This document shows, in pieces, positions 61,715 through 64,000 of a DNA stretch of 64,000 bases. Positions within the stretch are counted from its first letter, which is position 1; each line of letters opens with the position of its first letter. The notes below the pieces were generated by a model. The model saw nothing but the letters and a program-made list of their open reading frames with translations, was not told the DNA's origin and made no database searches. The translations under genes were made by a program, and so were the position numbers. The stretch is from Thermococcus sp. EP1. GTDB lineage: Archaea > Methanobacteriota_B > Thermococci > Thermococcales > Thermococcaceae. The DNA lies in the NCBI RefSeq assembly GCF_001317345.1, contig NZ_JXCG01000003.1:186001-250000 (forward strand). Direction: 5' to 3'.

Positions 61715-63880
61715 TTATGATTTCTTCTTTCGGTTTTTATTACAGTTCATATCAAGGCAGACTTCATATTCTCTGTATCGTTCCTTAATTTTTACAATGG
61801 GTGCATTTCCACATTCTGGGCAAGTTTTTCCAGTTGGAATTATTTTTCCTCTTTGAAGAAGAGGGTAAGTTACGTTACACTCTGGCCAATTGGAACAACC
61901 TACAAACCTCTTCCCAGTTTTTCTATTATACCTAACAACTAAGTTTCCGCCACATTTAGGACATTTACCCACTATGATCTCAGCCTTCTTTTTTTCATCC
62001 TTTTCAACTTCTTGTTTTATGTGGGTTTCTTCCTCTGCCGTTAGCTCCTTTGCATTTTTTGATTTTTGTTTGGTTTTTCTGTTATTTTTCTGAGTGTTGA
62101 GAAACGTTTCAAGTAGTTTGGCCCCTATTTCACTTTCTTTATTTTTAAACTCTTTTAAAATTTTAATCAATGTCTTTTTCGAATCTTCTATGACTTTTTC
62201 TTTGGTTAATTTTCTTTGTATTATCTCTTCCATTTTTTGTTCAAATTCTCTAGTAAGTTCGACACTTATTATGTCTGGAACATTGCTTTCAAGGGCTTCA
62301 ACAACTTTAATACCTAGAGGGGTGACTTTTATAGTTCTTTTTCCTTCTATATATCCTCGCGAGTATAATGTTTCTAAAATTTGAGCCCTGGTTGCTTTTG
62401 TACCAATTCCTAAATCTTCCATCTTCTTGATAATGCTAGCTGGTGAGTATCTCGCAGGAGGCTTGGTTTTCTTTTTTTCTCGTTTTATCTGAAGCACGTT
62501 TATAGTTTCCCCTTTTACAAATTTAGGAAGGATAATTTCATCAAATTTCACATATTTTCCGTATATTTTGAGCCAACCTTCTTTTATGGTTCTTGAACCA
62601 CTGAGGATAAAGTGGTGATTATTGGAGTTTATGATGACCTTTACGCTCTCTCTAATGGCCGGATCAGCAAATGTTGCCAAGAATCTCCTAACAATTAGGT
62701 CATAAAGGTTTTGTTCTTCCTTGGTCAATTCTCCCGGTTTTGGAATTTCTCCTGTAGGGTATATAGCTGGATGAGCAGGATCATCTTTTTTACCTTCTAC
62801 GGGCTTTAGAATTCCTTTCCCCAAAAGCTCATGAGCATGCGGTTTATACTCTTGGATCTTTGCGAGGTTTTGGATGATGTTCTTATAGTTTAAGTTCTTT
62901 GGGAGCTTTTGAGAAGATGTTCTCGGATACGAAATGAATGCTCGCTCATACAAGCGTTGAGCAATATCTAAGGTTTTTTTAGGGCTATATTTGAAGGCCG
63001 AATATGCCTCTCTTTGAAGAGTACCAAGGTCAAATGGATGAGGGGGATAACGTTGTCTTTGTTCAACTTCTACATTTTCTACAAAGGCTGGTCCCTTTTT
63101 TGCTTCCTCAACTATTCGTTTAGCTTCCTCTTCATCAAAAATACGATCCTTTTCATAAGTGGCTGTATATTGCTCTCCGTTTTTCTCGAGGATCATTTTT
63201 ATGACCCAATATGGAATTGGGACAAAGTCTCTTATCTCCCTCTCTCTATCAACCAAGAATTTTAAGGTAGGGCCTTGAACACGCCCTGTAGAGAGGACTA
63301 CCCACTTTCCACTAGTTTTTCTTAGGGATGAACTCAAGGCTCTTGAGAGATTTACTCCCCAGTACCAATCAAGAATGTGACGTGCTATTCCAGCATCAGC
63401 CATTCCAAAGTTTATTGTGGGCTCCAAATTGTACCATGCTCTAATTAAATCTTTTTTTGTAAGGGCAGAAAATCTCATCCTTTTTGCTTTTGATGGGTCC
63501 ACTCCACAGGCATATTTTAAGGCAGTATATCCAATAACCTCACCTTCTGTGTCGTAATCACACGCTACTACGAATTCATCGGCCCGTTTGGCAAGTTCTT
63601 TGAGGGCTTTTATGTAATCTTTTGTATAACTTTTCCCTTTTTCTGCCACGTAGACTGGAACCCAATGAATATCAAAAACAGGATATCCGTAGGTTTTTTC
63701 CTTCGGGGCTAGAGAAAAAAGGTGCCCAACAGCAGGAGCAACTATTATCTTTTTGCCATCTCTGGTTAATTCATAGTAAGGGACTTTACCAATACTCTTT
63801 CTTATAGGTTTTCCCTCAGCAAGTGCATATGCGATTTTTCTGGCTACATTAGGTTTCTCTGCAATTATCAGTGTAGTCAT
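61715..63880 (-). CDS. topA: DNA topoisomerase I (type IA)
   Basis: A 721-residue type IA topoisomerase. TOPRIM acidic triad in [14 protein letters not shown] (D-x-D-x-E, about residue 108), catalytic tyrosine in [15 protein letters not shown] (about residue 318), two C-terminal zinc fingers (CPKC...CSNWPEC, CPEC...CLDMNC) after a Lys/Glu-rich linker (about residues 590-640). It relaxes negative supercoils and probably decatenates DNA. Start ATG at 63880 follows GAGAGGGATACC. Confidence 0.95.
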
Positions 63881-63935
63881 GGTATCCCTCTCTAAAGTGC
63901 TTTAGAAGAGCGGGTATAAGAATTTTTTGGAGAAT

Positions 63936-63992
63936 TGTGGGCCGGCAACAGAGGCCCGCGTTCATTTTTCGCGCGGGTGGATGCACCGGCCC
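63936..63992 (-). ncRNA. H/ACA-type pseudouridylation guide RNA
   Basis: Reverse strand from 63992: lower stem GGGCCGG/CCGGCCC (63992-63986 with 63945-63939), an internal pocket UGCAUCCA / CCUCUGUUG, upper stem CCCGCG/CGCGGG, an 11-base apical loop CGAAAAAUGAA that carries the GA...UGA sheared pairs of an archaeal kink-loop (L7Ae site), and ACA right after the lower stem. Upper stem to ACA is 16 bases, in the family's 14-16 range. All hallmarks of an archaeal H/ACA RNA are present. A further hairpin and the promoter may lie beyond the window edge. Confidence 0.75.
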
Positions 63993-64000
63993 TGTGAGCC

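Follow-up and report, generated by a model that had tools for sequence, protein, structure and literature searches.

The H/ACA hairpin at the window edge in Thermococcus sp. EP1 is the 3′ motif of the pseudouridylation guide RNA HgcF/Pab35

Introduction

Is the hairpin that lies against the end of a 64,000-nucleotide stretch of Thermococcus sp. EP1 DNA (the whole of the DNA analysed here, which we call ‘the window’) a new guide RNA, and if it guides, what does it guide? An initial annotation had read positions 63936–63992 of the minus strand as an H/ACA guide RNA that was as yet unannotated. The first part of that reading stands; the element itself, however, is far from unknown, being Rfam family RF00058 (HgcF/Pab35), for whose Pyrococcus abyssi orthologue targets have been tested. 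Taken as a whole, our explanation is that the hairpin forms the third unit, and second H/ACA motif, of HgcF; an RNA with its own promoter, U2553 of 23S rRNA as its main target and U2701 as a probable second—a reading to which we assign a probability of roughly 0.96.

Results

Architecture of the hairpin

Read from 63992 to 63936 on the minus strand, the sequence runs GGGCCGG UGCAUCCA CCCGCG CGAAAAAUGAA CGCGGG CCUCUGUUG CCGGCCC ACA, with stems, pocket, kink-loop and ACA exactly as previously described: an archaeal H/ACA architecture in which two stems surround a bipartite pocket, with a kink-loop and an ACA placed 3′ of the lower stem. The hairpin folds with an energy of −30 kcal/mol, which dinucleotide-shuffled sequences place at z = −3.2. 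Its features, and those of the gene around it, are as follows.

63925..64000, minus strand: in-window part of the HgcF/Pab35 H/ACA sRNA gene (cmscan, RF00058; full match equivalent to 63925–64094)
63993..64000, minus strand: tail of the middle H/ACA motif (Pab35.1; target in P. abyssi, L2672), whose ACA occupies 63993–63995; the remainder is outside the window
63936..63992, minus strand: Pab35.2-equivalent 3′ H/ACA motif of HgcF (sequence, covariation, and pocket pairing as published for Pa35.2-L2549)
63986..63992, minus strand: lower stem, 5′ arm GGGCCGG (partner 63939–63945)
63979..63984, minus strand: 5′ guide GCAUCC (in 87 of 90 genomes)
63972..63977, minus strand: upper stem, 5′ arm CCCGCG (partner 63955–63960)
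63962..63970, minus strand: kink-loop GA...UGA, putative L7Ae site (GA and UGA invariant)
63955..63960, minus strand: upper stem, 3′ arm CGCGGG (covariation)
63946..63953, minus strand: 3′ guide CUCUGUUG (CUCUGU in 88 of 90 genomes; pairs with UAACAGAG)
63939..63945, minus strand: lower stem, 3′ arm CCGGCCC (covariation)
63936..63938, minus strand: ACA box (invariant in 63 distinct sequences)

Two wobbles, U63985–G63946 and G63984–U63947, come after the seven pairs of the lower stem. Judging by published H/ACA structures, the kink-loop would be bound by L7Ae. In Thermococcus sp. EP1 two layers are mismatched, C-A next to this loop and A-C at the lower end of the GA stem; the GA stem reaches 10 layers only if both are counted, and because of them a 10-layer stem is only partly canonical. 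The spacing to the ACA depends on the same choice, being 16 nt from the last Watson–Crick pair of the upper stem and 15 nt with the A-C layer included, as the G-U layer is in Pyrococcus. The 16-base distance earlier taken to fit an active pocket is one nucleotide too long for the literature on productive folds, where 14 or 15 nt separate the GA stem from the ACA (PMC4652768).

The hairpin belongs to HgcF/Pab35

An Rfam scan of the 64-kb window alone returned two tRNAs only and no RF00058, because the window end at 64000 cuts the gene in two; a cut of this kind can make a known feature look new. The window corresponds to G000:C3:186001–250000. With DNA extended past the edge (G000:C3:248501–253500, locus L015), cmscan matches RF00058 over model positions 1–168 at 142.8 bits, the gathering score being 70 (E 6e-35), at L015 1425–1594 on the minus strand, where window position equals L015 position + 62500. 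The covariance-model search that the initial annotation had proposed places the element in a catalogued family, and the hairpin is no gene by itself but the 3′ third of an RNA of ~170 nt that extends beyond the window edge. Three hairpins make up the full RNA (fold z = −5.3): the 5′ one is simple, the middle one is an H/ACA motif, and the hairpin at 63936–63992 follows as the H/ACA motif at the 3′ end. The published division of Pab35 recognises three motifs, Pab35.1–3, of which Pab35.1 and Pab35.2 were matched to the HgcF motifs by their targets; the third H/ACA motif could not be placed in the 168-nt model. The hairpin is not new: in HgcF/Pab35, a guide for pseudouridylation, it is the 3′ motif known as Pab35.2.

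At its 5′ end HgcF carries the conserved simple hairpin (GCCGACAGCGAGGG...; L015:1560–1594, minus strand, equivalent to 64060–64094 and outside the window), which is without a pseudouridylation pocket; its first 14 nt hardly vary, and its loop and stem length differ between species.

Conservation and covariation

By DNA search the hairpin is found in 90 of 94 Thermococcales genomes, and with the covariance model RF00058 matches 91 of the 94, 90 over the cut-off, including all 74 good-quality genomes; in other families of the same class, none of 17 genomes has a match. In genome G016 HgcF occupies 318231–318398, which are exactly the published coordinates of P. abyssi Pab35. HgcF serves the heat-loving Thermococcales in selecting the rRNA uridines that are converted to pseudouridine, and is in this sense an ordinary housekeeping RNA.

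The 90 loci reduce to 63 distinct hairpins, whose counts are of sequences and not of independent events. Stem pairs were counted with structure-anchored arms, the MAFFT alignment misplacing the left arm of the lower stem. Counted in this way, 99% of cells in the 7-bp lower stem are paired, against 28–64% when slid by one or two positions, and 98% in the six pairs of the upper stem, against 37–62% when slid. Compensatory changes are seen in both stems, which answers the test in related genomes that had been proposed at the outset: in the lower stem, pairs 5 and 6 change jointly (CG to UA and GC to UA) in two genomes, and in the upper stem double-sided changes occur at three pairs. The layer that is A-C in EP1 is A-U in 8 and G-U in 11 of the 63 sequences. 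GA, UGA and ACA are the same in all of them.

Genome G007 (L011:1505–1560) has a one-nucleotide deletion in the 3′ guide (CUC-GUUG) and GCAUUC as its 5′ guide, with its 23S sites unchanged; its motif is either decaying or reflects a sequencing error. Weak second matches to RF00058 in seven Thermococcales genomes (24.6–36.8 bits) were considered as paralogues and set aside, the one examined (G044, L104:495–619, minus strand) being HgcE, with 79.6 bits, ~7 kb from HgcF.

Promoter and neighbours

Upstream of the conserved HgcF start, GCCGACAG, DNA could be read in 88 genomes, and every one of them has a TATA-like element within −30 to −23; in 85 the first base of this TTTAA/TTAAA element is at −27 or −28; conservation on this scale indicates that HgcF has its own promoter. 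Differential RNA-seq has revealed an HgcF transcript in T. onnurineus (PMC5316973); HgcF of EP1 may likewise be expressed as a discrete RNA.

The gene that follows HgcF in EP1 lies outside the RNA gene:

61799..63880, minus strand: topA, archaeal DNA topoisomerase I (NCBIfam TIGR01057, 949 bits)

Since the start codon of topA follows the hairpin on the same strand at a distance of ~50 nt, the hairpin might be read as a regulatory leader or attenuator of topA rather than as a guide RNA. Yet topA adjoins HgcF in 9 of 90 loci only, all of the same genus as EP1 (some loci reach only about 300–500 bases downstream, which is enough for a gene start within 50 bases), whereas HgcF itself is in nearly all genomes, accompanied by its own TATA box wherever it is located; and it is the pocket sequences, not just the stem, that are conserved. 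The changing neighbourhood thus largely refutes a role as topA leader, which we regard as highly improbable.

Upstream of HgcF in P. abyssi, ~50 nt away, is a gene for a C/D box sRNA (L039:1396–1451, minus strand); being on opposite strands, the two are divergent neighbours.

U2553 as the main target

The literal 16-nt target previously derived from the pocket, CAACAGAGG-U-N-UGGAUGCA, is absent from the 16S and 23S rRNA of EP1. The two halves of the pocket have their best matches at separate sites, CUCUGUU-G at U2553 and GCAUCC at U2701. A pattern search of the whole genome for a guide-complementary stretch found nothing.

At U2553 of the 23S rRNA, UAACAGAG lies directly 5′ of the uridine and pairs with the 3′ guide CUCUGUUG, making seven Watson–Crick pairs and one wobble, then one pair (8+1 bp by the published rules), in a 15-nt register that leaves the first C after the upper stem outside the guide. 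U2553, which we take to be E. coli U2457, is the equivalent of P. abyssi L2549, a target already validated for Pab35.2. Spacing confirms the mapping: U2553 and U2676, the L2672 equivalent, are 123 nt apart, as are L2549 and L2672; the target at U2676, read by eye against the middle H/ACA motif, is GUGAGC-U. Published rules specify a register of 14 or 15 nt, allow the 5′ duplex no more than a single wobble and bar a wobble beside the U (PMC4652768). U2553 is the one strong match under these rules, and only one other site passes them, with a 5-bp 5′ duplex in 16S; L2250, a weak published false target, also fits the EP1 pocket.

Shuffled guides find an equally long rRNA match in 157 of 1000 trials, and for this reason complementarity alone does not decide the identification, which depends on homology with a guide already tested. 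In P. abyssi, Pa35.2-L2549 is productive in vitro with a 3′ duplex of a single pair (PMC4652768, citing Muller 2008); by analogy with this orthologue, HgcF of EP1 would likewise guide pseudouridine formation.

U2701 as a possible second target

Why the 5′ guide is conserved is the question left over, and it points to a pocket with two targets: GCAUCC is nearly invariant, and L2549 does not explain this because one 3′ pair suffices there. Directly 3′ of U2701-C in the 23S rRNA of EP1 stands GGAUGC, the full complement of GCAUCC. The 5′ duplex is acceptable at 19 rRNA sites, and U2701 is the only one that then carries GGAUGC in full (P = 0.0046 for a random 6-mer). The equivalent position in P. 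abyssi would be 2697, which is reportedly a pseudouridine and may already be among the targets in Muller 2008. With moderate confidence we suggest U2701 as a second target of the Pab35.2 pocket. It seems somewhat probable, moreover, that one pocket has been conserved for two 23S sites near the peptidyl-transferase centre, serving U2553 through the 3′ guide alone in the 15-nt register and U2701 through both guides in the 14-nt register; if so, U2701 would be the reason for the invariant 5′ guide in 87 of 90 genomes, with a G-U beside the target U being tolerated.

The pairing at U2701 has precisely this wobble at n−1 and a second one besides, which published rules disfavour, a wobble beside the target U counting as an anomaly (PMC4652768). 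The motif might instead guide U2553 only, GCAUCC being conserved for some other cause, such as a protein contact or a non-ribosomal target; a one-base-pair 3′ duplex is, after all, enough for L2549, and the Pyrococcus-like genome G020 has lost GCAUCC with its 23S site unchanged. Set against this are the low chance (~0.5%) that a random 6-mer would match in full at one of 19 candidate sites, and the presence of U2701 followed by GGAUGC in all 23S genes examined, and we consider guidance of U2553 only to be a plausible but less probable account. The G020 locus (L053:1599–1656), with UCCCC in place of GCAUCC and GGAUGC retained in 23S, offers a natural test case for a second target.

Discussion

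Protein families for the modification machinery, Cbf5 (DKCLD), Nop10 and Gar1, all score over cut-off in the EP1 genome. We envisage that transcription of HgcF would start from the TATA promoter of the RNA, a short way past the window edge, and proceed on the minus strand, and that the hairpin would act within a Cbf5–Nop10–Gar1–L7Ae particle; its pocket would pair with 23S rRNA on either side of an unpaired uridine, which Cbf5 would then isomerise to pseudouridine. The main substrate would be U2553 (P. abyssi L2549), with U2701 probably held as a second in the same pocket, one nucleotide lower.

The EP1 element is, then, one more orthologue of a catalogued guide-RNA family. With HgcF RNA/Pab35 (RF00058) it has in common the full-length match, the order of hairpins, the pockets and the 23S target sites; it differs from its relatives in its loop sequences and, whereas the upper stem of Pyrococcus HgcF has a bulged nucleotide together with G-C and G-U, that of EP1 has no bulge, and C-A and A-C in those places. 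HgcE/Pab105 (RF00060) and HgcG/Pab40 (RF00064) are likewise H/ACA sRNAs of the Thermococcales, giving weak cross-matches at the HgcF locus (17.6 bits against a gathering score of 50, and 21.8 bits against 77, respectively); they share the architecture of HgcF but have other pockets and other targets.
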